Assembly: GCF_003236295.1 (NCBI RefSeq)
Contig: NZ_POTW01000026.1
Location: 1 to 64,000 of the forward strand
From: Jiangella anatolica
Lineage (GTDB): Bacteria > Actinomycetota > Actinomycetes > Jiangellales > Jiangellaceae
Reading direction: 5' to 3'
Length of the DNA stretch: 64,000 bases
In this document: positions 22,209 to 60,817 of the stretch, piece after piece
Layout of the letters: every line of letters begins with the position of its first letter
Numbering within the stretch: the first letter of the stretch is position 1
Program-made: the position numbers and the translations under genes
The notes under the pieces: generated by a model
The model's database searches: none
Seen by the model: the letters and a program-made list of their open reading frames with translations, nothing else
Told to the model about the DNA's origin: nothing

Positions 22209-22230
22209 GATCTCAGAGCATTCTGAGATC
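22209..22230. terminator. Hairpin GATCTCAGA-GCAT-TCTGAGATC at the end of the carboxylase gene
   Basis: Perfect 9-bp stem with a 4-base loop, overlapping the carboxylase stop codon (22229-22231) and ending 20 bases before the CapA/M15 start. No U-tract follows. It could end the carboxylase transcript, or act as an operator for the CapA/M15 promoter. Confidence 0.55.
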
Positions 22231-43525: not shown

Positions 43526-43527
43526 GG

Positions 43528-44367
43528 ATGCAGGCAGAGGACAGCAGCCGGATCCAGTGGCGCACGGCCGTCGCGGACCCGCACACCGGCGACGACGTCG
43601 TCATCCGCGGCTACAGCCTGCTGGACCTGATCGACCACGTCGACTTCGTGTCCGGCATCTACCTGGTGCTGACCGGCGAGCTGCCCACCGAGCCGCGGCG
43701 CCGGATGCTCGACACGATGCTGGTATCGATCGTCGACCACGGCATCTCGCCGTCGTCGGCGGTGGCCCGCATGATCAGCGCCTCCGGGGTGCCGTTGCAG
43801 GCCAGCGTCGCCGGCGGGCTGCTGACGTTCGGCGACATCCACGGCGGCGCCGGCGAGGAGTTCGCCCGGTTCCTGTCCGAGACCGTCGCCGAGGTCGAGG
43901 CCGGCCCGACGACGCCGGAGGGCTGGACGGCCACGGCCGAGCGGATCGTCACCGGCCACCGGGCGGCGAAGCGGCGGATCCCGGGCTACGGCCATCCGCA
44001 GCATCCGAACGGCGACCCGCGCGCGCCGCGGCTGGTCGGCACCGCCGCCCGGCTCGGCGTCGCGGGGCCGCACGTGGCACTCGCGCTGGCGCTGGAGGCG
44101 GCGATCGAGCGGTCCGGCAGCCGGCGCATCCCGATGAACATCGACGGCGCACTGGGCTCGATCATGCTGGACATCGGCCTGGACTGGCGGCACGCCCGGG
44201 CCGTGTGCATGATCGCGCGCACCTGCGGGCTGGCGGCGCACGCCGTCGAGGAGACCGTGCGGGAGAGAGGCTGGCGCGGCATCCCGTTCGACACCGTCGA
44301 CTACGACGGGCCCGCGCCGCGGCCGCTGCCCGGCCGGTACGTGACCGCGGCGGGTGGGGCCGCATGA
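43528..44367 (+). CDS. Citrate synthase-like protein (citryl-CoA lyase type)
   Basis: A 279-residue protein, much shorter than citrate synthase (about 370-430), matching only the catalytic core. His in FGDIHGGAGEEF, His in IPGYGHPQHPNGDPRA and Asp in MNIDGALGSIML correspond to the citrate synthase triad. It likely cleaves or forms a citryl-CoA-like 3-hydroxy-3-carboxyacyl-CoA. GGAGGTAGGG precedes ATG 43528; the end overlaps the next start (ATGA). Confidence 0.83.
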   Translation: MQAEDSSRIQWRTAVADPHTGDDVVIRGYSLLDLIDHVDFVSGIYLVLTGELPTEPRRRMLDTMLVSIVDHGISPSSAVARMISASGVPLQASVAGGLLTFGDIHGGAGEEFARFLSETVAEVEAGPTTPEGWTATAERIVTGHRAAKRRIPGYGHPQHPNGDPRAPRLVGTAARLGVAGPHVALALALEAAIERSGSRRIPMNIDGALGSIMLDIGLDWRHARAVCMIARTCGLAAHAVEETVRERGWRGIPFDTVDYDGPAPRPLPGRYVTAAGGAA

Positions 44368-45938
44368 CGGCGACCCTGGACCCGGCGACAGACGCCGGCC
44401 TGGCCGGCGCGGCCGAGGCCGTCGCCGTCACCGCCCGCTGCGTCGACCTGGCCTTCCCGGCGGTGACGGGGCAGGGCACGGAGTTCGCCGTGGCCGAGTC
44501 GGCGATGGACGCGGTGACGGTGGACGCGCTGATCCGCGACGCCCGGGCCGCGCACGGCGACGTCGCCGTGCAGCAGGCGCAGGCGGCCCGGCTGCTGGCG
44601 GCGACGGCGGCCGAGCGGGCGGTCTCGACGCTGCGCCAGGTGGGCGGGGAGACGACGGAACCGGCCGCGTCCGCCGCCCGGCTGGCCGTCCACCCGACCC
44701 CGATCCACCAGGTGCGCAGCGCCATCGGCGCGGCCGTGCACGCGGGCCGGTTCCAGTACGACGCGACCACGCTGCCGCTGCCGCCGGAACTGGTATCGCT
44801 GCGCGCGCTGGTGCGCCGGTTCGTCACCGAGCAACTGCTGCCGCACGAGGCCCGGCTGAACGAGGACGGCGACCTGCCGGTGGAGCTGTGGGCGGAGCTG
44901 GAGCGGCGCGGCCGGGAGCTGGACCTCAACGCGCTCGGCCTGCCCGCCGAGCACGGCGGCATGGGGCTGGGCCTCGTCGGCCAGCTGGTGGCGGCGGAGG
45001 AGATGGGCCGGGTCGCCGTCGGCTTCCGGCACGTCGTCGGCACACCGCCCGGCTCGCTGCCGCTGGCGCGGCACGGCACGGCGGCGCAGCACGCCGCCTA
45101 TCTGCGGCCGTGGCTGCGGGGCGAGCGCTGGGGCGCGTGGGCGACCACCGAGCCGGAGGCCGGCTCGGACCTGGCGGCGATCAGGACGGTCGCGGTCCGC
45201 GACGGCGACGGCTGGCGGATCGACGGCGCCAAGCACTTCATCACCGGCCTGGACCGGGCCGACTTCGTCATCACGTTCGCCAAGACCGATCCGGACCGCG
45301 GGCTCAAGGGACTGACGGCGTTCCTGGTCGACCTGGACGCACCCGGTGTCGAGGTCGGCCGCGAGCAGCACATGATGGGCCGCGAAGGCCTGCACTCGTT
45401 CGAGCTGCGCTACGACGGCCTGCACGTCGGCGACGACGCGCGGCTGGGCGAGCCGGACGAGGGCTTCCGGCTGCTGATCGCCGACGTGAGCAGGATGCGG
45501 GTGCTGATGGCCGGGCACTGCCTGGGCGTCGCGGCCCGCCTGATCGACATCGCCGCCGACTGGGGCCGCGGCCGCGTGCAGTTCGGCCGGCCGATCGGCG
45601 AGTTCGAGGCGCTGCAGTGGTACCTGGCCGACTCCGCGGCCGAGCTGCTGGCCTGCCGCAGCTCCGCCTACCGGACGGCGATGGCGATCGACGCCGGTCA
45701 GCGCGCCCAGGCGGAGTCGGCGACGGTCAAGGCGTACGGGACGGAGCTGGCCTGCCGGGTGGCCGACCGGGCGATGCAGATCCTCGGCGGCACCGGCTAC
45801 TGCACGGAACTACCCGTCGAGGCGCTGTACCGGGCGGTGCGGCTGTGGCGCATCGCCGAGGGCAGCTCGGAGATCCAGCGCATGCTGGTCGGCCGGCAGC
45901 TCGCCGCCGGCTGGCGACCGGAGGTGGGAGTCGCATGA
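44364..45938 (+). CDS. Acyl-CoA dehydrogenase 2 with a 130-residue N-terminal extension
   Basis: A 524-residue protein. The acyl-CoA dehydrogenase domain starts only at about residue 137 (LPPELVSLRALVRRFV) and has TTEPEAGSDLAA, RVQFGRPIGEFEALQWYLADSA, GGTGYCTELPVEALYRA and AEGSSEIQRML with Glu499 as probable base. The N-terminal 130 residues are Ala-rich and helical and resemble no catalytic domain I know. ATG 44364 is fixed by the ATGA overlap, so the extension is real unless a start lies inside it. Confidence 0.87.
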   Translation: MTATLDPATDAGLAGAAEAVAVTARCVDLAFPAVTGQGTEFAVAESAMDAVTVDALIRDARAAHGDVAVQQAQAARLLAATAAERAVSTLRQVGGETTEPAASAARLAVHPTPIHQVRSAIGAAVHAGRFQYDATTLPLPPELVSLRALVRRFVTEQLLPHEARLNEDGDLPVELWAELERRGRELDLNALGLPAEHGGMGLGLVGQLVAAEEMGRVAVGFRHVVGTPPGSLPLARHGTAAQHAAYLRPWLRGERWGAWATTEPEAGSDLAAIRTVAVRDGDGWRIDGAKHFITGLDRADFVITFAKTDPDRGLKGLTAFLVDLDAPGVEVGREQHMMGREGLHSFELRYDGLHVGDDARLGEPDEGFRLLIADVSRMRVLMAGHCLGVAARLIDIAADWGRGRVQFGRPIGEFEALQWYLADSAAELLACRSSAYRTAMAIDAGQRAQAESATVKAYGTELACRVADRAMQILGGTGYCTELPVEALYRAVRLWRIAEGSSEIQRMLVGRQLAAGWRPEVGVA

Positions 45939-46795
45939 CCTGGCTCGGCGCGGACACGTACACGTACCACGAGGTGACCTTCGACGACGGCGTCCTGGTC
46001 GTGCGCTTCGACCAGCCCGAGGCGCTGAACCCGTTCACGCTGGCCTCGATGAACGAGCTCGCGCTGGCGCTCAACGCGGCGGCCCACAACCCCGACATCC
46101 GAGTGCTCGTGCTGACCGGCACCGGGCGGGCGTTCTCGGCCGGCGGCAACGCGAAGGCGATGGGCGAGCGCAAGGACGGCGGCAACGGCGCGCATCCGCT
46201 GGACCGGCCGCTGTGGAACGTCCCGACCATGAGCGTGGAGGAGCGGCTGCGCCACACCAAGCAGACCGGCCGCGAGCTGATGCTGGCGCTGCACCGGCTG
46301 GACAAGCCCACCATCGCGGCGGTCAACGGGCTGGCCGCGGGCGCCGGCATGGACATCAGCCTGGCCTGCGACATCAGGATCGCCGCCGCGGAGGCCCGGT
46401 TCGCCCAGATCTACGTGCGCCGCGGCCTGATCCCGTTCGACGGCGGCATGTTCTGGCTGCCCCGGCTGGTCGGGCTGAGCAAGGCGCTGGAGCTCATGTA
46501 CACCGGCGACTGGGTCGACGCCGAGGAGGCGCTGCGGCTCGGCCTGGTCAGCGCCGTCCATCCGCAGGACGACCTGATGCCGCGCACGCTGGAGCTGGCC
46601 CGGCGGCTGGCGTCCGGTCCGCCGGCGGCGCTGGCCGCGATCAAGAACATCACCCGCCGGGCGCTGCAGCTGGACCTCCCGCAGACGATGGAGCTGACCT
46701 ACGGCGCCGCGGAGTACCTGTTCCGGACCGCCGACCACGCCGAGGCGATGGCCGCGTACGCCGAGCGGCGCGACGCCGCCTACACGGGGTGGTGA
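45935..46795 (+). CDS. Enoyl-CoA hydratase/isomerase-family protein 1
   Basis: A 286-residue crotonase-fold protein: LTGTGRAFSAGGNAKAM forms the first oxyanion segment and NGLAAGAGMDISLACDIRIAA the second. The usual first catalytic Glu region reads AAGAGMD, with Asp in place of Glu, so activity may be isomerase- or hydrolase-like. ATGA overlap with the previous gene. Confidence 0.87.
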   Translation: MTWLGADTYTYHEVTFDDGVLVVRFDQPEALNPFTLASMNELALALNAAAHNPDIRVLVLTGTGRAFSAGGNAKAMGERKDGGNGAHPLDRPLWNVPTMSVEERLRHTKQTGRELMLALHRLDKPTIAAVNGLAAGAGMDISLACDIRIAAAEARFAQIYVRRGLIPFDGGMFWLPRLVGLSKALELMYTGDWVDAEEALRLGLVSAVHPQDDLMPRTLELARRLASGPPAALAAIKNITRRALQLDLPQTMELTYGAAEYLFRTADHAEAMAAYAERRDAAYTGW

Positions 46796-46798
46796 CCG

Positions 46799-47557
46799 GT
46801 GACCGTCGTCGTCGAACGCCGTGACCGGGTCGCCTGGGTGATCCTGGACCGGCCGGCCGTGCGCAACGCCGTCGACCTGCGGATGCGGGTGGAGCTGGCC
46901 GACGCGCTGGACCGGCTGGCCGGCGACGACGACCTGCACGCGCTCGTGCTGACCGGCCGGGGCGAGACGTTCTGCGCCGGTGGCGACCTGGCCGAGCTGG
47001 CGCAGCCGCGGACGCCGGCCGAGGCCGCGGACCGGATGGCGGCCGGCAACCGGATGATCGCGGCGCTGCACGGCTTCCCGGTCCCGACGGTCGCGGCCGT
47101 GCACGGCGCGGCGGCCGGCGCCGGCTGCGGCCTGGCGCTGGCCTGCGACCTCGTCTACGCCGCCGCGTCGGCCCGGTTCGTGCTCTCGTTCACCGGCCTG
47201 GGGCTGGCGCCCGACGCCGGCGCCAGCGTGCTGCTGCCGGCCCGGCTGGGTCCGGGCCGGACCAAGGAGCTGCTGCTGCTCGGCGGCACGCTGGACGCGG
47301 TCGACGCGGCTGGCGCCGGGCTGGTGGACCGGGTCGTGCCGGACGACCGCCTGCTCGCCGAGGTGGAGACGGTGGCGCGGACGTTGGCGGACCGGTCCCG
47401 GCCGGCGCTGGTGGCCACCAAACGCCTGGTCGACCGGCATGTGGACCTGGCCAGCGCGCTGGCCGCCGAGCTGGACGCCCAGGTCGCGCTGCTGGCCACG
47501 TCCGAGCATCGCGCCGCCCGCGACGCCTTCCTGGCCAGGAAGGGAGCCCGCACATGA
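46799..47557 (+). CDS. Enoyl-CoA hydratase/isomerase-family protein 2
   Basis: A 252-residue crotonase-fold protein: LTGRGETFCAGGDLAEL and HGAAAGAGCGLALACDLVYAA. The Glu expected after GAGC is a Gly (GCGLAL), so at least one canonical hydratase acid is missing and an isomerase or other CoA-ester reaction is possible. GTG 46799, 3 bases after the previous stop; the end overlaps the BadI-like gene. Confidence 0.86.
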   Translation: MTVVVERRDRVAWVILDRPAVRNAVDLRMRVELADALDRLAGDDDLHALVLTGRGETFCAGGDLAELAQPRTPAEAADRMAAGNRMIAALHGFPVPTVAAVHGAAAGAGCGLALACDLVYAAASARFVLSFTGLGLAPDAGASVLLPARLGPGRTKELLLLGGTLDAVDAAGAGLVDRVVPDDRLLAEVETVARTLADRSRPALVATKRLVDRHVDLASALAAELDAQVALLATSEHRAARDAFLARKGART

Positions 47558-48339
47558 GCGACTACACCGACATCAGGTACGAGCGGCGCGACGCCGCGGC
47601 GATCGTCACGATCGACCGGCCCGAGGTGATGAACGCGTTCCGGGCCGAGACCGTCGACGAGCTGGTCCACGCCCTCCGCGCGGCCGCCGCGGACCGGACC
47701 GTGGCCGCCGTCGTCATCACCGGGGCGGGCGAGAAGGCCTTCTGCACAGGCGGCGACCTGTCGACGAAGACCGACGCCGGCTACGCCGGGCCGCACGCCA
47801 CGGGCATCGACATCGACACGTTCAACTACACGGTCCGCTCGCTGCCCAAGCCGGTGATCGCGGCGGTGAACGGCTACGCCATCGGCGGCGGCAACGTCCT
47901 GCAGGTCGTCTGCGACCTCACCATCGCCGCGGAGCACGCCGTCTTCGGCCAGGTCGGGCCGCGGGTCGGCAGCGTCGACCCCGGCTTCGGCACGTCGTAC
48001 CTGGCCCGGCTGGTCGGCGAGAAGAAGGCGCGGGAGCTGTGGTTCCTGTGCAGGCGCTACAGCGCCGCCGAGGCGCTGGCGATGGGGCTGGTCAACGCCG
48101 TCGTGCCGGGCGAGGAGCTGATGGCCGAGGCGTTGCGCTGGTGCGCGGAGATCGCCGCGCTGAGCCCGACGGCGCTGCGGCTGGCCAAGCAGTCCTTCGC
48201 CGTCGACACCGAGATGATCGCGGCGATGAGCCGGTTCGCGGTGTCCACCGTCGACCTCTTCTACCGAACGGCCGAGGCCGAGGAGGGCTACCGCGCCTTC
48301 CGCGACCGCCGTGCCCCCGACTTCACCGACTACCGATGA
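47554..48339 (+). CDS. BadI/MenB-like crotonase (probable 2-ketocyclohexanecarboxyl-CoA hydrolase)
   Basis: A 261-residue crotonase of the MenB/BadI branch. TGAGEKAFCTGGDLSTK, NGYAIGGGNVLQVVCDLTIA, FGQVGPRVGSVDPGFGTSYL, ARLVGEKKARELWFLCRRYS and the tail GYRAFRDRRAPDF match the BadI pattern of Rhodopseudomonas palustris more than MenB; other menaquinone genes are absent. BadI opens the ring of 2-ketocyclohexanecarboxyl-CoA to pimelyl-CoA. The match is from memory of the family, so substrate identity is inferred. Confidence 0.83.
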   Translation: MSDYTDIRYERRDAAAIVTIDRPEVMNAFRAETVDELVHALRAAAADRTVAAVVITGAGEKAFCTGGDLSTKTDAGYAGPHATGIDIDTFNYTVRSLPKPVIAAVNGYAIGGGNVLQVVCDLTIAAEHAVFGQVGPRVGSVDPGFGTSYLARLVGEKKARELWFLCRRYSAAEALAMGLVNAVVPGEELMAEALRWCAEIAALSPTALRLAKQSFAVDTEMIAAMSRFAVSTVDLFYRTAEAEEGYRAFRDRRAPDFTDYR

Positions 48340-48347
48340 GGCCGCCC

Positions 48348-48722
48348 ATGACCGCCCTGCCGTCGTACGATCCCAGCCAGGACGACCTCGTCGCCGCCAT
48401 CGCGGCGGTCGTCGTCGACATTCCGGCCGGGGGGACGGAACGATGGGACGCGGTGATCCTCTTCGAGGTCGCGACCGGCGAACGGTGGCATCTCAGCGTG
48501 TCCGCCGGCGTACCGGGCGTCGTCAGGGGCGGTCATCCGGCGCCGACGGTGGTGGTCGAGGCGACCCCCGAGGCGCTGCGCGAGGTGTTCCTCGACGGAC
48601 GCGACATCACCCACCAGTTCGCACACGGCGGCATGCGGCTGCGGGCCGGCGACTACTACGACCTCATCTTCCTGAGCCGGGCCCTGGGCCGGCTCAAGCG
48701 CGAGCAGGGCAGGTCGCGATGA
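48348..48722 (+). CDS. SCP2-like sterol/lipid-carrier-fold protein
   Basis: A 124-residue protein. The second half (APTVVVEATPEALREVFLDG, then FAHGGMRLRAGDYYDLIFLSRALG) has the SCP2 pattern of a carrier for acyl or sterol ligands. I use ATG 48348 with GAGG upstream; the ATG at 48336 overlaps the previous stop and would add four residues. It directly precedes the thiolase-like gene, as SCP2 and thiolase-like proteins are often linked. Confidence 0.75.
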   Translation: MTALPSYDPSQDDLVAAIAAVVVDIPAGGTERWDAVILFEVATGERWHLSVSAGVPGVVRGGHPAPTVVVEATPEALREVFLDGRDITHQFAHGGMRLRAGDYYDLIFLSRALGRLKREQGRSR

Positions 48723-49912
48723 GGCGGGTCGCGGTCGTGGGCGTGGGACAGCTGCCGTTCCGCTCCCGGTACCCCGCCGACCGCTTCGACGAGCTGGCGA
48801 TGATGGCCGCGAAACGGGCGCTGGCCGACGCCGGGCTGGTCGCCGGCGACGTCACGTCCGCGGTCTACTCGGTCTACAGCGAGCTGCTGATCCGGCAGGG
48901 CACGCCGGACGTGATGATCCACGACTACCTCGGGCTCAACGGCCGGCCCGGCCAGCGGGTCACCGCGGGCGCGGCGTCCGGCGGGTACGCGGTGAAGACG
49001 GCGTGGGCGGACGTGGCGTCCGGGTTCAGCGACGTCGTGCTCTGCCTCGGCGTGCAGAAGGCGCTCGACGTCGACGACCCGGAGACCGGACAGCGCGCCG
49101 ACGCCGCGCTGGAGGCCGAGAGCATGACGCTGGACACCACCTGGCACCTGCCGTTCTCGCAGCAGCCGTGGGCGCTGCTGCTCACCGCCCACATGGACAA
49201 GTTCGGCGGGCCGACCGAGGAGCAGATCGCCCGGGTCGCGGTGAAGAACCGGGCCAACGCCGTCCGCAACCCGAACGCGCACCTGCGCCGGCCGGTCACC
49301 GTCGAGGAGGTGCTGGACTCCCGGCTCACCAACTGGCCCACCACGATGTTCGAGTCATGCCTGTACGGCGAGGCGGCCTCGGCCGTCGTGCTGGTGGCCG
49401 AGGAGCTCGTGCGGCCGGAGCAGCGGCCGGTGTGGATCACCGGCGTCGGCACCTGCCATCACAACTCGACCGACGAGATGAGCGCCGACGACGCCGGCCG
49501 GGTCTGGCCGCTGTACGGCGCCAGCCGGCAGGCCTACCGGATGGCCGGCGTCACCGACCCGCGGACCGAGCTGGACGTCGTCGAGCTGAACGACCTGGTG
49601 GCCGGGCTGGAGCTGATGAGCTACGCCGAGCTCGGGCTGTGCGCGCCCGGCGAGGGCGGCGCGCTGATCGACGAGGGGTTCACGGCGTTCGACGGCCCGC
49701 TGCCGGTGAACCCGTCCGGCGGGCGCATCGGCGCCGGGCACATCGCCGGCGTCTCGGGCATCTACAGCACCGGCGAGATCGTCCAGCAGCTGCGCGGCGA
49801 GGCCGGCGAGCGGCAGGTGCCGATCCGGGCCGGACGAGGGCTGGCCTGCATGGTCGGCGGGGCCGGGCTGGGCCTGGGCGCGGCCATCGTGCTGGAACGG
49901 GACGGCCGATGA
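48719..49912 (+). CDS. Thiolase-like (SCP-x/Ltp2-type) protein lacking the nucleophilic Cys
   Basis: A 397-residue thiolase-fold protein. The position of the acyl-accepting Cys is Ala85 (AGAASGGYAV instead of the usual CxSG), while the C-terminal NPSGGRIGAGHIAG His and the ACMVGGAG Cys remain. A classical Claisen thiolase mechanism is therefore unlikely. Immediately downstream is a DUF35 protein, the arrangement seen for Ltp2-type retro-aldolases of steroid side-chain breakdown. A role as acyl-CoA aldolase is a reasonable inference. ATG overlaps the SCP2-like stop (ATGA). Confidence 0.85.
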   Translation: MRRVAVVGVGQLPFRSRYPADRFDELAMMAAKRALADAGLVAGDVTSAVYSVYSELLIRQGTPDVMIHDYLGLNGRPGQRVTAGAASGGYAVKTAWADVASGFSDVVLCLGVQKALDVDDPETGQRADAALEAESMTLDTTWHLPFSQQPWALLLTAHMDKFGGPTEEQIARVAVKNRANAVRNPNAHLRRPVTVEEVLDSRLTNWPTTMFESCLYGEAASAVVLVAEELVRPEQRPVWITGVGTCHHNSTDEMSADDAGRVWPLYGASRQAYRMAGVTDPRTELDVVELNDLVAGLELMSYAELGLCAPGEGGALIDEGFTAFDGPLPVNPSGGRIGAGHIAGVSGIYSTGEIVQQLRGEAGERQVPIRAGRGLACMVGGAGLGLGAAIVLERDGR

Positions 49913-49926
49913 GGGAGGTGGAGCCG

Positions 49927-50430
49927 ATGACCACGACCGGGGTGGACCTTCCCGACGACGCGGTGGACGCCGACGACTGGTTCGAGGTCCCCGACGAGCT
50001 GCACTACTACTACTCCTACTCCTATGGCGGAGTCTCGCGGTTCTTCCGCGAGATCGTCGACAACCAGCGGCTGACGGTGACCCGGTGCGAGCTCTGCGAC
50101 CGCGGCTACTGCCCCCCCCGCCGGGACTGCCCGCGCTGCTGGGAGCGGACGACGTGGCAGCCGCACCCGGGCACGGGCACAGTGGTGGCGCCGGTGTACT
50201 GCTACTGGACCCAGATCAACTCGCCGGTGCGCCGCTACGTCCAGCCGCCGTTCGTCTACGCGCTGGTCCGGCTCGACGGCATGACGAACGCGCTGCACAC
50301 GCTGATCCACACCGACGACCTGCGGGTCAACCGGACGGTGCGGGTGGGCACCCGGGTCGAGGTCCGGTTCCGCGAGCAGCGACGCGGCACGCTGGCCGAC
50401 GTCTACTTCGTGCCGGTGGAGCAGCCATGA
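49927..50430 (+). CDS. DUF35 OB-fold/zinc-ribbon acyl-CoA-associated protein
   Basis: A 167-residue partner protein. The zinc ribbon has Cys54, Cys57, Cys68 and Cys71 (CELC and CPRC), followed by an OB-fold (TGTVVAPVYCYW onward). DUF35 proteins bind thiolase-like enzymes and give them substrate access or stability. A Tyr-rich segment (HYYYSYSYGG) precedes the ribbon. I use ATG 49927 because GGGAGGTG sits 7 bases upstream; an ATG at 49909 overlaps the previous stop. The end overlaps the CoA ligase start. Confidence 0.88.
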   Translation: MTTTGVDLPDDAVDADDWFEVPDELHYYYSYSYGGVSRFFREIVDNQRLTVTRCELCDRGYCPPRRDCPRCWERTTWQPHPGTGTVVAPVYCYWTQINSPVRRYVQPPFVYALVRLDGMTNALHTLIHTDDLRVNRTVRVGTRVEVRFREQRRGTLADVYFVPVEQP

Positions 50431-52016
50431 CCGCCGGCTACACCGGCCGGCGCACGCTGGGCGCGCTGCTGGACCACCGCGCGGCAGAGCGCGGCGACGC
50501 GACGTTCGTGTGGTGGCGCGACGAGCGGCTGTCCTACCGGGAGCTGGCCGACCGGGCGGCCCGGGCCTGCGGCGGCTTCGCCGAGCTGGGCGTCGGCGCC
50601 GGTGACGTCGTGGCGTTGCTGCTGGACAACGGGCCGGAGTTCCTCGCCGCCTGGTTCGGGCTGGCCCGGCTGGGCGCGGTCGAGGCGCCCGTCAACACCG
50701 CATACAAGGGCTGGCAGCTGGAGTCGGTGCTCGCCGAGACGGGCGCGGCGACGCTCGTCGTCGACGCGGCGCGGCTGCCGGCGGTGCTGCCGCTGCTGCC
50801 CCGGGTGCCGGGGATCCGCACCGTCGTGGTGGTGGGCGAGGCCGAGGCCGACGAGGCGGCCTCCGTCGCTCTCGTCCCGTGGACCGCGGTGGCGGCCGGG
50901 CCGAGCGTGCCCGAGGCCGAGGTCCGGCCGTCCGACCCGGTGGCGATCATGCTGACGTCCGGCACCACGTCGGCGTCGAAGGGCGTGCTGCTGTGCCACG
51001 AGCACGAGCTCACCGTCGCCGAGGTGATCGGCGGCCACCTGCGGATGGACGAGTCCGACGTCTTCTACAACTACTTCCCGCTGTTCCACAACGCCTCGCA
51101 GGCGATGATCACCCTGTCGGCGCTGCGCTTCGGCGCGTCGATGGTGCTGACCGACCGGTTCTCGGTGCGCCGGTTCTGGCCGGACGTCCAGCGGCACGGC
51201 TGCACGCTGTTCTTCTGCATGGGCCCGATGGTCGACTTCCTGCTCGCCGAGGCCGGCGCCGCGCCCGCCCGCGACGACCACACCCTGCGCATGGGCTGGG
51301 GCATCGGCTACGGCGAGAGCCAGGCGGCGCGGTTCGCCGAGCGCTTCGGGGTGCCGCTGCTCGGCGGCTACGGCGCCACCGAGATCGGCATGGTGACGCT
51401 GCACCCGCACGAGCGGCCCCGGCTGGAGACGGCCGGCACGCCGCTGCCGCACGCGGAGGTCCAGGTGGTCGACGCCGACGACCGTCCGCTGCCGGTCGGC
51501 GAGGTCGGCGAGATCGTCGTCCGCCCGCGCCGCCCCTACGTCACGACGCTCGGCTACCACAACCGCCCGGCCGAGACCGTGGCGCTCATGCGCAACTGCT
51601 GGGTGCACACCGGCGACGCCGGCCGGTTCGACGAGGAGGGCTATCTGCACTTCGTCGACCGGATCAAGGACGTGATCAGGCGGCGCGGCGAGAACATCTC
51701 CAGCTTCGAGATCGAGGCCGTGGTCACGCAGATCCCGGCCGTGCTGGAGTGCGCCGCGGTGGCCGTGCCGTCCGGGCACGGGCGGCACGACGACGAGGTG
51801 TACCTGGCCGTCGTCGCCGAGCCGGGACAGGAGCTGGACCCGGCCAAGGTGGTCGCGTACTGCGCCGACCAGCTGGCCTACTTCGCCGTCCCCCGCTACG
51901 TCGAGGTCTGGGACGAGCTGCCGAAGACGCCGACCGGGAAGATCCGCAAGACCGAGATCCGCGGCCGCGGCGTCGGGCCGCACACGTGGGATCGCAACCT
52001 CGGGGGGTCGCTGTGA
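50427..52016 (+). CDS. AMP-forming acyl-CoA synthetase/ligase
   Basis: A 529-residue ANL-superfamily ligase: LTSGTTSASKGV (P-loop, slightly altered), GGYGATEIGMV, VHTGDAGRFDEEGYLHFVDRIKDVI, RRGENISS and PTGKIRKTE with the catalytic Lys near the C-terminus. It should activate an imported carboxylic acid as its CoA thioester, the entry step of the operon. In the alicyclic interpretation it is the AliA counterpart. Overlaps on both sides. Confidence 0.92.
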   Translation: MTAGYTGRRTLGALLDHRAAERGDATFVWWRDERLSYRELADRAARACGGFAELGVGAGDVVALLLDNGPEFLAAWFGLARLGAVEAPVNTAYKGWQLESVLAETGAATLVVDAARLPAVLPLLPRVPGIRTVVVVGEAEADEAASVALVPWTAVAAGPSVPEAEVRPSDPVAIMLTSGTTSASKGVLLCHEHELTVAEVIGGHLRMDESDVFYNYFPLFHNASQAMITLSALRFGASMVLTDRFSVRRFWPDVQRHGCTLFFCMGPMVDFLLAEAGAAPARDDHTLRMGWGIGYGESQAARFAERFGVPLLGGYGATEIGMVTLHPHERPRLETAGTPLPHAEVQVVDADDRPLPVGEVGEIVVRPRRPYVTTLGYHNRPAETVALMRNCWVHTGDAGRFDEEGYLHFVDRIKDVIRRRGENISSFEIEAVVTQIPAVLECAAVAVPSGHGRHDDEVYLAVVAEPGQELDPAKVVAYCADQLAYFAVPRYVEVWDELPKTPTGKIRKTEIRGRGVGPHTWDRNLGGSL

Positions 52017-52792
52017 ATGGAGCACGGTTCGACGGCCGGGTGGTGCTGGTGGCCGGCGGCTCCGGCGGCGTGGGCGCCGCGACGGTGCGCCGGCTGGCGG
52101 CCGAGGGCGCCGACGTCGGCGTCCTCTACCGCTCCCGGGCCGAGGTCGCCGACGGGCTGGTGACGGAGGTCGAGAACGCCGGCCGGCGGGCCGTCGCCGT
52201 CCGGGCCGACCTCGCCGACCCGGACGAGGCCGGCGCGGCGGTGACGGAGGTGAGCGAGAAGCTCGGCGGGCTGGACGCTGTCGTGTCCACCGTCGGCGCC
52301 ACCGCACACATGACGCCGTTCCTCGACGTCGACGACGAGCTGATCGACCGGACCATCGGCGCGGAGCTGAAGAGCGCCTTCCACTGCACCCGGGCCGCCC
52401 TGCCGGCGATGCTGGCGCGCGGGCGCGGCGCGTTCGTGTTCGTCGGCTCCGACTCGGGCAAGGTCGGTGCCAGCGGCGAGGCGATCTCCGCCGCCTGCCG
52501 CGGCGGGCTGATCGCGTTCGCCAAGTCGATCGCCCGGGAGTACGCGCGCTCCGGCGTGCGGGCGAACGTCGTCTGCCCGGGCCCGATCAACACGGAGCTG
52601 TGGCAGGGGCTGCTGGCGCGCGAGGACGAGCTGTCCCAGCGCCTGGCCGCGGGCCTGATCCGGGGCGTGCCGCTGAAGCGGGTGGCCGAGCCGGCAGAGG
52701 TGGCCGCGGCGGCGGTGTTCCTCGCCTCCGACGACGCCAGCTTCGTCACCGGCCAGGCGCTCAGCGCCAGCGGCGGCCTGACGATGAGCTGA
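52013..52792 (+). CDS. BadH-like SDR-family protein with both catalytic residues replaced
   Basis: A 259-residue short-chain dehydrogenase-fold protein: cofactor motif GGSGGVGAATVRRLA, ANVVCPGPINTELW, and FVTGQALSASGGLTMS. It resembles BadH (2-hydroxycyclohexanecarboxyl-CoA dehydrogenase), but where BadH has YxxxK this protein reads GEAISAACRGG: Ser159 for Tyr and Arg163 for Lys, with Ser146 kept. Either the chemistry has changed, or it is a non-catalytic or regulatory homologue. GTG 52013 overlaps the ligase stop. Confidence 0.85.
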   Translation: MNGARFDGRVVLVAGGSGGVGAATVRRLAAEGADVGVLYRSRAEVADGLVTEVENAGRRAVAVRADLADPDEAGAAVTEVSEKLGGLDAVVSTVGATAHMTPFLDVDDELIDRTIGAELKSAFHCTRAALPAMLARGRGAFVFVGSDSGKVGASGEAISAACRGGLIAFAKSIAREYARSGVRANVVCPGPINTELWQGLLAREDELSQRLAAGLIRGVPLKRVAEPAEVAAAAVFLASDDASFVTGQALSASGGLTMS

Positions 52793-52803
52793 GGGGGACC
52801 ATC

Positions 52804-53592
52804 ATGAGTGAGGTTGCTCCCGCCCTCCGGGTCCAGGACCTGTGCCTGTCCTTCGCCGGGGTCAAGACGCTGCAGTCGGTCTCCTTCGACGTGCCGACCG
52901 GCGCCCTGGCGTCCCTGATCGGGCCGAACGGCGCCGGCAAGACGTCGCTGGTCAACTGCCTGACCGGTTACTACCGGCCGGACTCGGGCCGGATCGAGGC
53001 GCTCGGCCGGAACCTCACCGGCCTGCGGCCGGACCGGGTGGCCCGGGCCGGGATCGTCCGCACCTACCAGAACGTCGGCCTGTTCGGCGGCCTGTCGGTC
53101 GCGGACAACCTGCTGGCCGGCCGGCACCTGCGGATGCGCTCCGGCCTGCTGGCCGGCGGCCTGTCGCTGCCCTGGTGCACGCGGGAGGAGCTGGCCGAGC
53201 GCGAGGTGGTCGAGGACCTGCTGGCGCTGCTCGAGATCGGCCACCTGCGCACCGTTCCGGCCGGACGGCTGCCGTACGGCCTGCAGAAGCGCGTCGAGCT
53301 GGGCCGCGCGCTGGCCATGGAGCCCGCGCTGCTGCTGCTCGACGAGCCGATGGCCGGCATGAACCTCGGCGAGAAACGCGACATGGTGCGGCTGATCCGC
53401 GGCGCGCGCGATCGCGGCGTCACCGTGCTGCTGATCGAGCACGACATGAGCGTCGTGATGGGCGTCTCCGACGTCGTCGCCGTGCTCGACTTCGGCCATC
53501 TCATCGCCTACGGGCCGCCGGACCAGGTGAGCCACGACCCCGCGGTGGTCGCGGCGTATCTCGGCGTGGACGACGCGGAGCCGGTCCGATGA
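52804..53592 (+). CDS. livG: Branched-chain-type ABC transporter ATP-binding protein (LivG)
   Basis: A 262-residue ATPase: Walker A GPNGAGKT at residues 40-47, signature region LPYGLQKRVELGRAL and Walker B LLLLDEPMAGM, with the LivG-style YQNVGLFGGLSVADNLL stretch. GAGGGGG precedes ATG 52804. It begins the Liv transporter part of the operon. Confidence 0.93.
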   Translation: MSEVAPALRVQDLCLSFAGVKTLQSVSFDVPTGALASLIGPNGAGKTSLVNCLTGYYRPDSGRIEALGRNLTGLRPDRVARAGIVRTYQNVGLFGGLSVADNLLAGRHLRMRSGLLAGGLSLPWCTREELAEREVVEDLLALLEIGHLRTVPAGRLPYGLQKRVELGRALAMEPALLLLDEPMAGMNLGEKRDMVRLIRGARDRGVTVLLIEHDMSVVMGVSDVVAVLDFGHLIAYGPPDQVSHDPAVVAAYLGVDDAEPVR

Positions 53593-54158
53593 GCGGGCCG
53601 CGGATCGGGCTGCGCCGCCAGGCGCGCGGCCTCTGGACCGAGGTGCCCCGCGCCGAGCTCGTCGCCGAGGCCCAGGCCAGTGGCGAACGGATGGCGGCGG
53701 CGCTGTCGCTCCGTCCCGGCGAGGACGTGCTGGCGGCCGAGTCGCCGGACTGGCCCGGCACGGCGGTCGTCCTCGCGGCCTGTCTGGCCGCAGGAGCCGT
53801 CGCCAACGTCCCCGAGTCGCCGGCCACGGCGGCCGCTGCCGCCCGGCAGCTGGCTCCGCAGGTGCTGGTGGCGGCGCCGTCGACCTGGGACGCGGCCGTC
53901 CACTCCGCCCGCGCCGAGATCGACCTCGCCCGCGGCGTGGGCGGCTGGGCGCTGCGGCAGGCCACGACGGCGACCCGATCCGGCCCACTGGGCCGGCTGG
54001 CCGGCGCGCTCGCCAGGAACCGGGTGCGGCGGCGGTTCGGCTGGCAGGTGGCGCGCGCCGCCGGTTCGCTCGGCGGCCCGCCGGAGCCGGCCACGGTCGA
54101 GTGGCTGGCGCTGTTCGGCCTCGCCGTCGTCACGCTGGACGAGGAGGCCGAGCGATGA
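53589..54158 (+). CDS. Shrunken acyl-CoA synthetase-like protein (mini AMP-binding remnant), 189 aa
   Basis: In Liv operons of this kind a full-length (about 600 aa) long-chain acyl-CoA synthetase often sits between livG and livH. This 189-residue protein occupies that place. It keeps N-terminal traces (PRAELVAEAQASGERMAAAL, LRPGEDVLAAESPDWPG) and a mid-protein trace (VGGWALRQATTATRSG, LARNRVRRRFG), but has no SGTTGxPK P-loop, no YGxTE and no C-terminal Lys domain, so it cannot be a ligase. The frame is open and coupled by ATGA overlaps on both sides. The homology is read by eye and is only moderately certain. Confidence 0.6.
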   Translation: MSGPRIGLRRQARGLWTEVPRAELVAEAQASGERMAAALSLRPGEDVLAAESPDWPGTAVVLAACLAAGAVANVPESPATAAAAARQLAPQVLVAAPSTWDAAVHSARAEIDLARGVGGWALRQATTATRSGPLGRLAGALARNRVRRRFGWQVARAAGSLGGPPEPATVEWLALFGLAVVTLDEEAER

Positions 54159-55039
54159 ACGTCCTGCCGCAACTGCTGCTCAACGGGGTGATCCTCGGCG
54201 CCCTCTACGCGCTGATCTCGGTCGGATTCGTGCTGGTCGTCAAGGGCAGCGGCGTCATCAACCTGGCGCAGGGCGAGCTGGTGCTGCTCGGCGGCTACGT
54301 CACCGCATGGCTGCTGGGCGAGCGCGGGCTGCCGGCCGTGGTCGCCGTGCCGGCGGCGATGCTGCTGATGGCCGCGGCCGGCCTGGTGGTCGAGCGCGTG
54401 GTCGTCCGCCCGCTGGAGAACCAGTCGATGCTGGCGCTGCTCATGGCCACGCTCGCGCTGGCCACGATCCTGCAGGGCCTGGTGCCGATCATCTTCGGCA
54501 GCGAGCCGCGCAGCATCCCGTCGCCGTTCAACGCCGCGCCGGTCTCGGTGGCCGGCCTGCAGGTGCCGCGGGTCAACGTGTGGTCGATGGGCATCGCGCT
54601 CGCGTTCATCGCGCTGGTGGCGGTGTTCTTCGCCACCACCCGCTACGGCCTGGCGATGCGGGCCGCCTCGGACCACCGGCTCGCCGCCCAGTCCCTGGGC
54701 ATCCGGATCCGCCGGGTGAACGCGATCGCGTGGGCGATCGCCGGCGCCGCGGCGGCCTTCGGCGGCTTCGCGTGGGGATCGGTGCTGGGCGTCGACGCCG
54801 GCCTGGCGCTCGTGGGCATCTTCGTCTTCCCCGTGGTGATCCTCGGCGGCATCGACTCGCTGGCCGGCGTCGTCGTCGGCGGGCTGGTCGTCGGCATCGC
54901 CGAGAGCCTCGCCACCTGGTACGTGGACCCACTGGTCGGTGGCGGCTTCGGTCTGGTCGCCCCGCTGCTGCTGCTCATCGTCGTGCTGCTGGTCCGCCCC
55001 TACGGGCTGTTCGGCCGGCACGAGATCGGACGGGTGTGA
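54155..55039 (+). CDS. livH: Branched-chain-type ABC transporter permease (LivH)
   Basis: A 294-residue membrane protein with about eight hydrophobic segments. LNGVILGALYALISVGFVL, VINLAQGELVLLGGY and MRAASDHRLAAQSLGI are LivH hallmarks. ATGA overlap with the mini synthetase-like gene and a one-base overlap with livM. Confidence 0.93.
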   Translation: MNVLPQLLLNGVILGALYALISVGFVLVVKGSGVINLAQGELVLLGGYVTAWLLGERGLPAVVAVPAAMLLMAAAGLVVERVVVRPLENQSMLALLMATLALATILQGLVPIIFGSEPRSIPSPFNAAPVSVAGLQVPRVNVWSMGIALAFIALVAVFFATTRYGLAMRAASDHRLAAQSLGIRIRRVNAIAWAIAGAAAAFGGFAWGSVLGVDAGLALVGIFVFPVVILGGIDSLAGVVVGGLVVGIAESLATWYVDPLVGGGFGLVAPLLLLIVVLLVRPYGLFGRHEIGRV

Positions 55040-56142
55040 TGGCGACCACCGCGGTGCTGCGACCGCAGCTGCGCACGAGCTACCGGCAAGAGCGGTCCGC
55101 GCTGGCCAGCCGGGCTGGACGGACCCGCCTGGCGGTCGTCGCCGGTCTCTTCCTCGCCCTGCCGTACCTGGTCGGCGACTACTCGCTGGACCTGGTCAAC
55201 CTGGTCGCGGTGGCGGCCGTGGCTTCGATCGGCGTGAACATCCTCACCGGCTACGCGGGTCAGCTGTCGGTGGGCCACGCGGCGTTCGCCGCGGTGGGCG
55301 CGTACGGCGCGGTGAACCTCGTTGGCCGGGCCGGGCTGCCGCTGTGGGCCGCCGTCGTCGTGGCGGCACTGATCGCGGGCTGCGCGTCGCTGGTCTTCGG
55401 GCTGGTCGCGGTGCGCATCCGCGGGCTGTACCTGGCCATCGCGACGCTGGCCGCGCAGTTCGTCATCGTGTGGGTGCTGAACCACTGGGAGTGGGTGACC
55501 GGCGGGACGCAGGTGGCCGCGTCGATCCCGGCCGAGCGGATCGGCCCGATCGACACCGGAACGGTCCAGGGGCGCTACTACCTCATCGTCGGCTTCCTGC
55601 TGATCTGCGTCGTCTTCGCCGCCAACCTGCTGCGGTCGCGCTGCGGGCGGGCGTTCGTGGCGATCCGCGACCACAGCCTGGCCGCGGCCGGCAGCGGGAT
55701 CTCGGTCTTCCGCTACACGCTGCTCGCGTTCTTCGTGTCGTCCTGTTACGCCGGGCTGGCCGGCGCGCTGTTCGCGGTGAACGCGGGCGCCATCACGCCG
55801 GAGTTCTTCCCGCTCTCGCTGTCCATCAGCTACATCGCGATGATCATCATCGGCGGCGTCGGCACCATCGCCGGCGGGATCTGGGGTGCCGCGTTCGTCA
55901 CGCTGCTGCCGGTCTTCCTCCGCGACGGGCTGCCGGTCCTGGGCATCGAGCTGACCTCGGAGCTGGTCGCCAACCTCCAGCTGGTGCTGTTCGGCGCGGC
56001 GATCCTGGTCTTCCTGGTGGCCGAGCCCGGCGGGCTGGTCCAGCTGGCCCGCCGGCTGCGCGACCGGGTCGCGCGCTGGCCGTACCGGACGCCGGCGCCG
56101 GACGCGTACCTGCTGGACGGCAACGAGAGGGGCAGCCGATGA
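55039..56142 (+). CDS. livM: Branched-chain-type ABC transporter permease (LivM)
   Basis: A 367-residue permease: GYAGQLSVGHAAFAAVGAY, LAIATLAAQFVIVWVL, FVAIRDHSLAAAGSGI and IIIGGVGTIAGGIWGA, with about nine to ten membrane segments. ATG 55039 overlaps the livH TGA (TGATG); a GTG one codon earlier is possible. Confidence 0.93.
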   Translation: MATTAVLRPQLRTSYRQERSALASRAGRTRLAVVAGLFLALPYLVGDYSLDLVNLVAVAAVASIGVNILTGYAGQLSVGHAAFAAVGAYGAVNLVGRAGLPLWAAVVVAALIAGCASLVFGLVAVRIRGLYLAIATLAAQFVIVWVLNHWEWVTGGTQVAASIPAERIGPIDTGTVQGRYYLIVGFLLICVVFAANLLRSRCGRAFVAIRDHSLAAAGSGISVFRYTLLAFFVSSCYAGLAGALFAVNAGAITPEFFPLSLSISYIAMIIIGGVGTIAGGIWGAAFVTLLPVFLRDGLPVLGIELTSELVANLQLVLFGAAILVFLVAEPGGLVQLARRLRDRVARWPYRTPAPDAYLLDGNERGSR

Positions 56143-56948
56143 CCGCACTCGAGCTCGACCACGTCCAGGCGAGCTACGGCTCGCTCGCGCCGACGTTGCG
56201 TGACGTGTCGCTCACCGTCGCCGACGGCGAGGTGGTCGCCGTCCTGGGACCGAACGGTGCCGGCAAGACGACGATGCTGCGGGCCGTCTCCGGGCTGCTG
56301 GCCGGTGAGCGCGGGCGGGTGACGCACGGCGACCTGAGGTTCGCCGGCCGGTCGATCCGCGGCCTCGACCCGGGCATGATCGTGCGGCGCGGCATCGTCC
56401 AGGTGCTGGAGGGCCGGCAGGTCTTCCGGCACCTCACCGTCGAGCAGAACCTGCTGGCCGGCGGCCACACGGCCGGATCGCTGCGGTCGGCCCGGGCGGC
56501 GGCGCGGGAGATGTTCGAGCTGTTCCCGGCGTTGGCCGCGCTGCGCCGGTCCAAGGCCGACAACCTCTCCGGTGGCGAGCAGCAACTGCTCGCCGTCGCC
56601 CGCGCGCTGATGGCCCGGCCGCGGCTGCTGATCCTCGACGAGCCGTCGCTGGGACTCGCCCCGATCCGGGCGCGCGAGATCTTCGCCCTGGTGGCGCGCG
56701 TGAACCGGGAGCGCGGCGTGACGATCCTGCTGGTCGAGCAGAACGCCCGGGCGGCCCTGGCACTGGCCGACCGGGCGTACGTGCTGGAGGCCGGGACGGT
56801 GGTGCTGGCGGGCACGCCGGCGGAGCTGCGGGCGGACCCGCGGGTGTCGGCGGCGTACCTCGGGGTGGCCGGCGAGAACGCGTACCGCGAGATGGATGGA
56901 CGCCCGATAGGCGAGTCTCCGACTTACCGTAGTCCGACCTTTCGTTAG
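56139..56948 (+). CDS. livF: Branched-chain-type ABC transporter ATP-binding protein (LivF)
   Basis: A 269-residue ATPase: Walker A GPNGAGKT at 37-44, signature LSGGEQQLLAVARAL and Walker B LLILDEPSLGLAP, with the LivF-type PEGR equivalent LEGRQVFRHLTVEQNLL. A 25-residue polar C-terminal tail extends past the usual end. It partners LivG, LivH, LivM and probably the LivK-like protein at 40195-41436. Overlaps the livM stop. Confidence 0.93.
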   Translation: MTALELDHVQASYGSLAPTLRDVSLTVADGEVVAVLGPNGAGKTTMLRAVSGLLAGERGRVTHGDLRFAGRSIRGLDPGMIVRRGIVQVLEGRQVFRHLTVEQNLLAGGHTAGSLRSARAAAREMFELFPALAALRRSKADNLSGGEQQLLAVARALMARPRLLILDEPSLGLAPIRAREIFALVARVNRERGVTILLVEQNARAALALADRAYVLEAGTVVLAGTPAELRADPRVSAAYLGVAGENAYREMDGRPIGESPTYRSPTFR

Positions 56949-56957
56949 GGTTGACCC

Positions 56958-57491
56958 GTGCCCAAGCGACCAGATCTTGCCGTTGACCCGATCGAAGAAG
57001 TGCGCCGTCAGTGGCGCGAACGAGCCTGGCCGGCGGCCGACGAGGTGCTCACCGTCGGCTCCATCATGCGGGTCCAGCAGATCCTCCTGCGCCGGCTCGA
57101 GGACACCCTCAAGCCGTACGACCTCACCTTCGCCCGGTTCGAGGCGCTGCTGCTGCTGCTGTTCAGCCAGCACGGGTCGCTGCCCCTGGGCAAGATGGGC
57201 GAGCGGCTGCTGGTGCACTCCACCAGCGTCACCAGCACGGTCGACCGGCTCGAGCGCCAGGGCTACGTGCAGCGGGTCGCGCACCCCACCGACCGCCGGG
57301 TCATCCTCGCCCAGATCACCGAACTGGGCCGCACCACCGCCCTGGAGGCCACCGAGAAGGTGGGCGCCGACCACTTCGGGCTGCCCGGCTGGTCCCGGGC
57401 GGACCTCGCCTCGCTGTCCGGCCTGCTGCGCCGGATCCGCGAGGAGAACGCGGACTTCGTGGAGGGCCGTCGTGACGCCGAATCGTCGTAA
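56958..57491 (+). CDS. MarR-family transcriptional regulator
   Basis: A 177-residue winged-helix protein: YDLTFARFEALLLL, GKMGERLLVHSTSVTSTVDRLERQGYV and HPTDRRVILAQITELGR, the recognition helix and wing of MarR. It starts at GTG 56958, 9 bases after livF, with a poor ribosome site. Placed between the Liv genes and the thiolase/FadB pair, it probably senses a CoA thioester or acid and controls the operon, as in benzoate and phenylacetate loci. Confidence 0.9.
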   Translation: MPKRPDLAVDPIEEVRRQWRERAWPAADEVLTVGSIMRVQQILLRRLEDTLKPYDLTFARFEALLLLLFSQHGSLPLGKMGERLLVHSTSVTSTVDRLERQGYVQRVAHPTDRRVILAQITELGRTTALEATEKVGADHFGLPGWSRADLASLSGLLRRIREENADFVEGRRDAESS

Positions 57492-57512: not shown

Positions 57513-58733
57513 GTGCACGCAGCCGGTGAGGCATACGTCTTCGAGGCCATCAGAACGCCGCGCGGTCGCGGCAAGAGCACCGGCTCGCTGCACGAGGTCA
57601 AGCCCGTCGGGCTGGTCGTCGGCCTGGTCGAGGAGCTGCGCCGGCGCCATCCCGGCCTCGACGAGGAGCTGATCGACGACGTCGTGCTCGGCTGCGTCAC
57701 GGCGATCGGCGAACAGGGCATGGACATCGCCCGCAGCGTCGCCCTTCTCGCCGGGCTGCCGGACACCGCCGGCGGCATCCAGGTGAACCGGTTCTGCTCC
57801 AGCGGCCTCGACGCGGTCAACCAGGCGGCACAGCGGGTCCGCTCCGGCTGGGAGGACCTGATCCTGGCCGGCGGCGTCGAGTCGATGTCCCGGGTGCCGA
57901 TCGGCAGCGACGGCGGCGCCTGGGCGATGGACCCGGAGACGGCGTTCGCCGGCGGTTACGTGCCGCAGGGCGTCAGCGCCGACCTCGTCGCCACGCTGGG
58001 CGGCTGGACCCGGGCCGACGTCGACGCGTACGCCGTCGAGTCGCAGGCGCGAGCGGCGAAGGCGCAGGCCAACGGCCACTTCGCCCAGTCCGTCGTGCCG
58101 GTGACCGACCGCAACGGGCTGACCATCCTGGACCACGACGAGTTCCTCCGGCCCGGCACCACGGCCGAGTCGCTGGCGGCGCTGCGGCCATCGTTCGCGG
58201 CGCTCGGGGAGCAGGGCTTCGACGCGGTGGCGCTGGAGCGGTACCCGTCGGTGGAGCGGATCGACCACGTCCACCACGCGGGGAACTCGTCGGGCATCGT
58301 CGACGGCGCTGCGCTCGTGGTGGTCGGCTCGCAGCGGGTCGCCGACGAATGCGGGCTCACGCCGCGGGCCCGGATCGTCGCCACCGCCGTCTCCGGCGCG
58401 GAGCCCACGCTCATGCTGGCCGGTCCCGCGCCGGCCGCCCGCAAGGCGCTGGCACGGGCCGGGCTGGCGGCCGGCGACATCGACCTGTTCGAGGTGAACG
58501 AGGCGTTCGCGGCGGTGGTGCTGCGGTTCATGCGCGAGCTCGGGGCGCCGCACGATGCGGTCAACGTCAACGGCGGCGCGATCGCGCTGGGCCATCCGCT
58601 GGGCGCCACCGGCGCGATGCTCGTCGGCACGCTGGTCGACGAGCTGGAACGGCGCCGGCTGCGACGCGGCCTGGTGGCGATGTGCGTCGGCGGCGGCATG
58701 GGCGTCGCCACAATCGTGGAGCGGGTCGCGTGA
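57513..58733 (+). CDS. fadA: Acetyl-CoA C-acyltransferase (beta-ketothiolase)
   Basis: A 406-residue thiolase with the complete catalytic set: Cys95 in [10 protein letters not shown], His361 in [11 protein letters not shown] and Cys391 in MCVGGGMG. It releases acetyl-CoA from 3-ketoacyl-CoA. GTG 57513 has GGAGGG upstream. It overlaps the FadB start by GTGA, forming the usual beta-oxidation pair. Confidence 0.93.
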
Positions 58734-60817
58734 TCGGCTACGAGCGCGGCGACGACGGCGTCGTCGTGCTGACCCTCGACGATCCCGACGCGACCGTCAC
58801 GACGATGCACGAGCGGTTCGACCGTGCGCTGCGCGCGGCCGTCGACCGGCTGGAGGCCGAGCGCGCCGACGTCACCGGTGTCATCGTGACCAGCGCGAAG
58901 ACGACGTTCTGCGCGGGCGCCGACCTCGACCTGATGCTGACCGCCACCCGGGCGGACGCGGCCCGGATCTTCGCGCGGGTCGAGGGCGTCAAGGCCGACC
59001 TGCGCCGGCTGGAGCGGCTCGGCGTGCCGGTGGTCGCGGCCCTCAACGGGACCGCGCTGGGCGGCGGCCTGGAGATCGCGCTGGCCTGCCATCGGCGGCT
59101 GGTCGCGGACGTGCCCATGCGGCTGGGGCTGCCGGAGGTCTCGCTCGGGCTGCTGCCGGGGTTCGGCGGCCTCACCCGGACGGTGCGGATGCTCGGCCTG
59201 CAGCGGGCGCTGACGTCGGTGCTGCTGCCGGGTACCCGGTTCGACCCGGCCGGCGCGCTGGCGGCGGGACTCGTCGACGAGATCGTCCCGGCCGGCCGGC
59301 TGCTGGCGGCGGCGCGGCAGTGGATCGCGGCGCACCCGGACGCCGGGTCGCAGCCCTGGGACCGGCCGGGCTATCGGCTGCCCGGCGGCGCGCCGTCGTC
59401 GCCGGAGCTGGCCGCCGTGCTGCAGGTGCTGCCGGCCCGGCTGCGAACGAAGGCCAAGGGTGTGCCGGAGCTGAGCGCGAGGAACATCCTGAGCGCCGCC
59501 GTCGAGGGCGCCCATGTCGACGCCGGCACCGCCAGCCGGATCGAGACGCGCTACCTGGTCGAGCTGATCACCAGCCGGCTGTCCACGAACCTGGTCACGT
59601 TCTCCTTCGTCGACCGGCGGCGGGTCGACTCGGGCGCGGCCCGCCCGGCCGGGCCCCCGTCGCCGCCGGTGCGGAAGGTCGGCGTCCTCGGCGCCGGGAT
59701 GATGGGCGCCGGCATCGCGCACGTCTGCGCACGCGCCGGGCTGGACGTCGTGCTGAAGGACGTCTCCCTGGACGGCGCCGTGGCGGGCCGGAGCCGCGCC
59801 GCGGCTTCCGACGAGGTGCTGGCCCGGATCCACCCGACCGCGGAAGCCGCCGACCTGGCCGGGTGCGACCTGGTGATCGAGGCGGTGTTCGAGGACCAGC
59901 GGCTCAAGCAGGCGGTGTTCGGCGAGATCGAGGACGTGGTGGCGCCGGACGCCCTGCTCTGCTCGAACACGTCGTCGTTACCGATCGGCGGCCTGGCCGC
60001 CGGGGTCCGCCGACCGGCGGACTTCGTCGGCATGCACTTCTTCTCCCCGGTCGAGCGGATGCCGCTGGTCGAGGTCATCGTCGGGAAGCAGACGTCGGAC
60101 GCGGCGGTGGCGCGCGCCTACGACATGGCGCGGCGGCTGGGCAAGACGCCGATCGTCGTCAACGACTCGCGTGGCTTCTTCACCTCGCGGGTCTTCGCCG
60201 CCCTCGTGGTCGAGGCGGCCGCGATGGTGGGCGAGGGCGTCGACCCGGTGACGATCGAACGGGCGGCGACGCTGGCCGGCTTCCCCGCTCCCCCGCTGGC
60301 GATGACCGACGAGGTGTCGCTGGGCCTGCTGCGCCGGATCCGCGACGAGGCCCGGGCGGCCGGCGAGGGCCCCGGCCTCGGCTTCGCCGTCAGCCCCGGC
60401 ATGGCCGTCGTCGACCGGATGGTGACCGAGTTCGGCCGGCCGGGGCGCGCGTCCGGCGCGGGCTTCTACGACTACCCCGGCGACGGGCCGAAGCGGCTGT
60501 GGCGTGGGCTGTGGTCGCACTACGCCCGGCCGGACCGGCCGGTCCCCGTCCGTGACCTGCAGGAACGCTTCACCTTCATCATGGCGCTGGAGACGGCGAC
60601 GTGCCTGGCCGAAGGCGTGCTGCGGTCCGTGGCCGAGGCCAACGTGGGCTCGGTGCTCGGCATCGGGTTCCCCGCCCGCCACGGCGGGGCGCTCCAGTAC
60701 GTCGCCGCCTACGACGGCGGCCCGGCCGGCTTCGCCGCCCGTGCCCGCGAGCTGGCCGCGGCGTACGGCGAGCGGTTCGAGCCGCCGCCGGAGCTGGCGG
60801 AGCTGGTGCGGCGCTGA
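58730..60817 (+). CDS. fadB: Bifunctional enoyl-CoA hydratase/3-hydroxyacyl-CoA dehydrogenase (FadB-like)
   Basis: A 695-residue fusion. The N-terminal crotonase domain has [20 protein letters not shown] and [16 protein letters not shown] with both catalytic Glu residues. The C-terminal 3-hydroxyacyl-CoA dehydrogenase domain has [41 protein letters not shown] and a final HAD_C repeat ([21 protein letters not shown]). It carries out two steps of beta-oxidation and is the last gene of the operon. Confidence 0.93.

Follow-up and report, generated by a model that had tools for sequence, protein, structure and literature searches.

In the 64,000-nucleotide stretch of DNA analysed here (the window), an operon with a BadI-like gene encodes an SDR of the BadH family in which only one of the four catalytic tetrad residues, Ser146, has survived. 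In SDR catalysis, Tyr serves as acid/base, Lys lowers the pKa of this Tyr and orients the nicotinamide ribose, and Asn takes part in the proton relay. Since Ser, Arg and Glu stand at the places of Tyr, Lys and Asn, it is unlikely that the protein carries out the ordinary SDR reaction. We see about even chances that it is a pseudoenzyme of the BadH family with regard to the ordinary alcohol/ketone reaction, which has been retained while the oxidation takes place elsewhere.

The gene and its operon

The open reading frame at 52013-52792 (forward strand) codes for 259 amino acids and its translation contains no internal stop. The start codon is a GTG that overlaps the stop codon of the preceding acyl-CoA ligase gene (GTGA), which suggests translational coupling of the two genes. 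The GC content by codon position (0.76/0.55/0.97) is similar to that of the neighbouring genes. Both Pfam and NCBIfam searches identify the product as an SDR. The top NCBIfam model is BadH (TIGR03206) with 218.9 bits, about half of the cutoff of 431.2 bits, whereas a true BadH (locus L086) reaches 443.9 bits. However, the low score alone is a weak argument, since values of 215-297 bits, likewise short of the cutoff, are obtained for several intact BadH-type proteins adjoining BadI-like genes. The SDR is at the same time the best BadH match of its own genome (about 219 bits), and the first-pass annotation was therefore right in calling it BadH-like. An intact BadH paralogue was searched for elsewhere in the genome; the next SDR scores 161 bits and none lies above this value. 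The following features make up the surroundings of the gene:

42353..46795, forward strand: two acyl-CoA dehydrogenases, a citrate-synthase-like protein and a crotonase, in the same gene run
47554..48339, forward strand: BadI-like ring-opening hydrolase (TIGR03210, 356 bits; cutoff 467.6)
48719..50430, forward strand: thiolase and OB-fold/zinc-ribbon (ChsH2-type) pair, the thiolase being distantly like BbsB
50427..52016, forward strand: acyl-CoA ligase (PRK06155-like), directly upstream of the SDR gene
52013..52792, forward strand: BadH-family SDR with E118/S146/S159/R163 instead of N/S/Y/K
52804..57491, forward strand: branched-chain-amino-acid-type ABC transporter genes and a MarR regulator (MarR by Pfam, transporter as read from sequence)
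58733..60817, forward strand: FadB-like hydratase/3-hydroxyacyl-CoA dehydrogenase with retained catalytic Glu and His

The same-strand gene run also holds three crotonases, the BadI-like one included, and a second thiolase. BadH and BadI have their roles in the cyclohexanecarboxylate-type pathway (PMC9795900), and judged by its gene content the operon resembles such a pathway, possibly for a different ring acid. Intact BadH directly adjoins BadI in other genomes (L086, L088, L090, L091, L128 and L137), L086 lying above the cutoffs of both families. On plasmid pBN3 of Paraburkholderia aromaticivorans, the annotated order is a divergent MarR gene followed by badH-badI-aliB-aliA-hydratase. The SDR therefore appears to stand in the place of BadH in an operon with BadI, although four genes lie between it and the BadI gene. 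Its identity to the badH product of pBN3 is 44%, and the VCPGP and C-terminal TGQ-LS-SGGLTM motifs are common to SDR and BadH. As in BadH operons, there are genes for a BadI-like protein, an acyl-CoA ligase, a dehydrogenase and a hydratase. The BadI of the operon is 54% identical to that of pBN3 and 49-57% identical to BadI-like proteins encoded beside intact BadH elsewhere, whereas the ligase and the acyl-CoA dehydrogenases share only 28-31% identity with AliA/AliB. When BadI was used as a search marker, the matches mixed BadI with MenB-type proteins.

Some other genes of the window deserve mention. An arylmalonate-decarboxylase/Asp-Glu-racemase-like protein (41625-42356, forward strand) and the citrate-synthase-like protein of 283 amino acids (43516-44367, forward strand) are both unusual for a cyclohexanecarboxylate operon. 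On the reverse strand, an open reading frame of 1853 amino acids (22229-27790) has a biotin-carboxylase-like N-terminus and possibly encodes a fused carboxylase. The thiolase of the operon stays far below every thiolase model's cutoff, and a search of 395 class genomes at E <= 1e-70 found no relative. An open reading frame of 189 amino acids (53589-54158, forward strand) lies between a LivG-like and a LivH-like gene and overlaps both. Pfam gives no match for it, and its similarity to an acetoacetate-CoA ligase model is weak (E 0.044); it may be the remnant of an acyl-CoA ligase and as such a second degenerate enzyme of the operon.

Altered residues and their position in the protein

We aligned the SDR with 42 BadH-type homologues gathered from searches of about 1,000 genomes, all of which are at most 47% identical to it. 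The alignment gave the following sites:

52052..52075, forward strand: cofactor motif AGGSGGVG (TGxxxGxG in the homologues), three Gly retained, Thr14 changed to Ala
52286..52297, forward strand: residues 92-95, NNAG changed to STVG
52364..52366, forward strand: codon 118 (GAG), Glu at the position of the catalytic Asn
52448..52450, forward strand: codon 146, catalytic Ser retained
52487..52501, forward strand: Ser159-x3-Arg163 replacing Tyr-x3-Lys

Codon 159 is TCC (Ser, from 52487) and codon 163 is CGC (Arg, from 52499), while none of the 42 homologues lacks Tyr159 or Lys163, so that the SDR of the window alone differs. At position 118, Asn is found in 41 of the 42 homologues and Glu in the SDR. 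Instead of the Asn-Ser-Tyr-Lys tetrad of BadH, the protein thus has Glu118-Ser146-Ser159-Arg163, and SxxxR instead of the YxxxK of classical SDRs. The glycine motif with its three Gly and, in the predicted structure, the Rossmann fold are those of a classical SDR. The NAD-preferring Asp39 is replaced by Tyr: after strand 2, there is a one-residue insertion and the sequence LYRSRA, where BadH has the NAD-type Asp. Asp66 is retained. The only Tyr residues of the protein are those at positions 39 and 177.

The departures from the family are not evenly spread. With a conserved column defined as one with the same residue in at least 90% of the homologues, there are 67 such columns and the SDR departs at 19 of them. 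Residues 1-163 account for 17 departures in 36 conserved columns, as against two in 31 for residues 164-259 (Fisher p = 0.0003). The runner-up in divergence, L135a, departs at 17 columns in a leave-one-out count, yet its Ser, Tyr and Lys are retained. With 17 of 67, the BadH-type SDR adjoining BadI at 9724-10452 of locus L135 comes close to the SDR of the window in divergence; in it, Asn118 is changed to Thr, while Ser, Tyr and Lys are retained. Mean identity to the BadH-type proteins is 50.7% for residues 164-259 and 35.1% for residues 8-90, the latter value lying within the 30.4-48.2% of eight BadH-type controls.

The first-pass annotation had stated that Ser159 and Arg163 replace Tyr and Lys and that Ser146 remains, both of which are borne out by the codons and the alignment. 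Its description of a replaced catalytic pair falls short, as both residues are indeed changed but the loss of Asn118 makes it three tetrad residues and not two. The cofactor fold, which was said to remain, is kept as far as the three Gly are concerned, but the cofactor site itself is altered (Thr14, NNAG and Asp39). That the segment is otherwise BadH-like applies best to residues 164-259 and less to residues 8-90.

Retained protein or relic

A close orthologue of the SDR was not found in about 1,000 genomes. Samples of the genus, the family, the class, the phylum and an alphaproteobacterial class yielded only proteins of at most 47% identity, and those retrieved have Tyr and Lys. One further class sample gave no match, the plasmid search gave BadH-type proteins of about 43% identity or less, and a contig scan with weak peptide patterns found remote SDRs only. 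In 11 other genomes of the genus, there was no match comparable to the SDR or to the thiolase of the operon.

The AlphaFold2 model of the SDR has a mean pLDDT of 93 and a pTM of 0.91, and Foldseek finds many solved SDRs of the FabG type at a TM score of about 0.9. A maintained, folded protein is better supported than random decay, given the clustering of the departures and the high confidence of the predicted structure. The first-pass annotation had likewise argued for substitution and not decay, and the neighbour-like GC content and the intact frame are also in line with this view.

The rate at which the SDR has evolved is ambiguous, since pairwise identities suggest an acceleration and the tree does not clearly do so. 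Compared with nine BadH proteins of BadI clusters, the SDR has a mean identity of 41%; the means of these nine lie between 41 and 54%, for most of them between 46 and 54%. The BadI of the operon, at 54% versus 50-59%, is almost at the usual level. A maximum-likelihood tree places the SDR in a near-basal position in the BadH group. Its terminal branch of 0.84 exceeds the BadH-type median of 0.31, yet three BadH-type branches surpass it, and measured from root to tip the SDR does not rank among the most distant proteins.

These values bear on the question of whether the protein is a redundant relic, in which FadB took over the oxidation, constraint was relaxed, the site drifted and stop codons are yet to come. 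We regard this as rather unlikely. The mean identity below that of most BadH homologues next to a near-normal BadI would fit such a course, as would the possible second degenerate enzyme downstream (53589-54158), and there is no orthologue in which the altered site is seen to be conserved. However, only two of the 31 conserved columns in residues 164-259 are changed, the fold is predicted with high confidence, and many non-conservative changes have accumulated with neither a stop nor a frameshift. The pseudoenzyme, for its part, is favoured by the replacement, in this protein only, of a Tyr/Lys pair that is invariant in the homologues, with Asn118 replaced as well, by departures that gather in the cofactor and active-site part and spare the C-terminal part, and by the model confidence, GC content and open frame named above. 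In addition, the SDR takes the place of BadH in a BadI-containing operon, the genome has no SDR with a higher BadH score, and FadB retains its catalytic residues. Against it stand the failure to find, in the genomes searched, an orthologue that would bear witness to purifying selection on the altered site, and the low mean identity, which could mean relaxed constraint, as BadI is only slightly low.

Glu118, Ser159 and Arg163 could also support another chemistry, so that the SDR would be an active enzyme with a changed reaction, for instance an isomerase, a hydratase or an enzyme acting like a dienoyl-CoA reductase on a ring acyl-CoA. These three substitutions fall into one pocket and Glu118/Arg163 could form an ion or acid/base pair. 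SDRs of the 2,4-dienoyl-CoA reductase type (PRK07677) naturally have Ser at the Tyr position, as the SDR does, and Ser-type SDRs adjoin BadI-like genes at L136 and L140. However, in 2,4-dienoyl-CoA reductases the Lys is retained and a different Tyr of the active site is used, whereas the SDR has Arg and, with Tyr only at positions 39 and 177, no extra Tyr in the active site. BadH is moreover its best family match and no dienoyl-CoA reductase is among the best 25 models. For these reasons we rejected membership in the 2,4-dienoyl-CoA reductases, and a changed reaction of whatever kind is unlikely. A chimera, in which a C-terminal part from BadH was fused to the N-terminal segment of another, NADP-type SDR before the catalytic residues were lost, seems very unlikely. 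Residues 8-90 are nearer to six other SDRs (43.7%) than to the BadH-type proteins, while in the eight BadH-type controls the two values are close or reversed, but this comparison is biased, as the six were chosen for matching the SDR. Residues 164-259 have only 38.7% identity to the other SDRs, and the insertion with LYRSRA would also fit a foreign N-terminal segment; the altered NNAG and Asn motifs, in contrast, match neither group. A sequencing or assembly error might be suspected, as one genome only carries the altered SDR, and the genome record is no independent check, since it and the window come from one source. Seven of the altered functional sites differ from the consensus residues by at least 11 nucleotide changes, all in frame, three of these changes being at codon 163 alone; this number rules out a sequencing error in our view, and an error of either kind is extremely improbable.

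In several actinobacterial loci (L130, L132, L136, L139 and L140), BadI-like genes are adjoined by SDRs of the dienoyl-CoA reductase type in which Ser or Ala stands in for the Tyr. The type was shown by model for L136, and some of these loci have an intact BadH nearby. A second SDR near BadI in L135 (11904-12632) has, by BLAST alignment, Ser-x3-Arg at YxxxK and Ala at the catalytic Ser, and is closest to glucose-1-dehydrogenase and dienoyl-CoA reductase models.

The oxidation step and other inactive SDRs

If the SDR is a pseudoenzyme, it is one that lacks the catalytic Tyr, Lys and Asn but still has the fold, the glycine-rich loop for the dinucleotide and the C-terminal part. Its gene might be retained because the product acts as a non-catalytic partner, in the manner of BbsC in the BbsCD dehydrogenase, or alternatively as a pathway regulator that binds a dinucleotide or an acyl-CoA. 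The oxidation of the 2-hydroxyacyl-CoA would then fall to FadB (58733-60817) or to an SDR encoded elsewhere. In an alignment with FadB of M. tuberculosis, the hydratase Glu and the dehydrogenase His are retained, so that FadB could perform the oxidation, as the first-pass annotation had proposed.

BbsC is reportedly the inactive subunit of BbsCD. For the heterotetrameric BbsCD, inactive pseudoenzyme subunits are mentioned in a paper title that PMC10818641 cites. The SDR resembles BbsC in being catalytically degenerate and in belonging to an operon for CoA-ester beta-oxidation, and the thiolase BbsB with its zinc-finger/OB partner has a similar pair as its counterpart here. However, the SDR is the sole SDR match on the contig and thus has no adjacent active partner as in bbsCD, which also speaks against the pseudoenzyme. 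The regulatory subunit MAT2B, an SDR fold that senses NAD(P), is a conceptual parallel only, because it is a two-domain SDR that keeps YxxxK (PMC3793261). A more specific and rather doubtful proposal is that, in an operon for an alicyclic acid, an SDR derived from BadH independently turned into a regulator or a non-catalytic subunit, a Glu118-Arg163 ion pair filling the old site. This would be a second origin of a protein of the BbsC kind, the partner being encoded elsewhere or not being an SDR at all (FadB or BadI).

Annotation pipelines would call this gene a dehydrogenase and could assign the BadH step to it, a step that the protein probably cannot perform. If the SDR is a retained pseudoenzyme, the question arises which enzyme carries out the hydroxyacyl-CoA oxidation that precedes BadI, and the protein would be an apparently independent addition to the few inactive SDR subunits in CoA-ester beta-oxidation.
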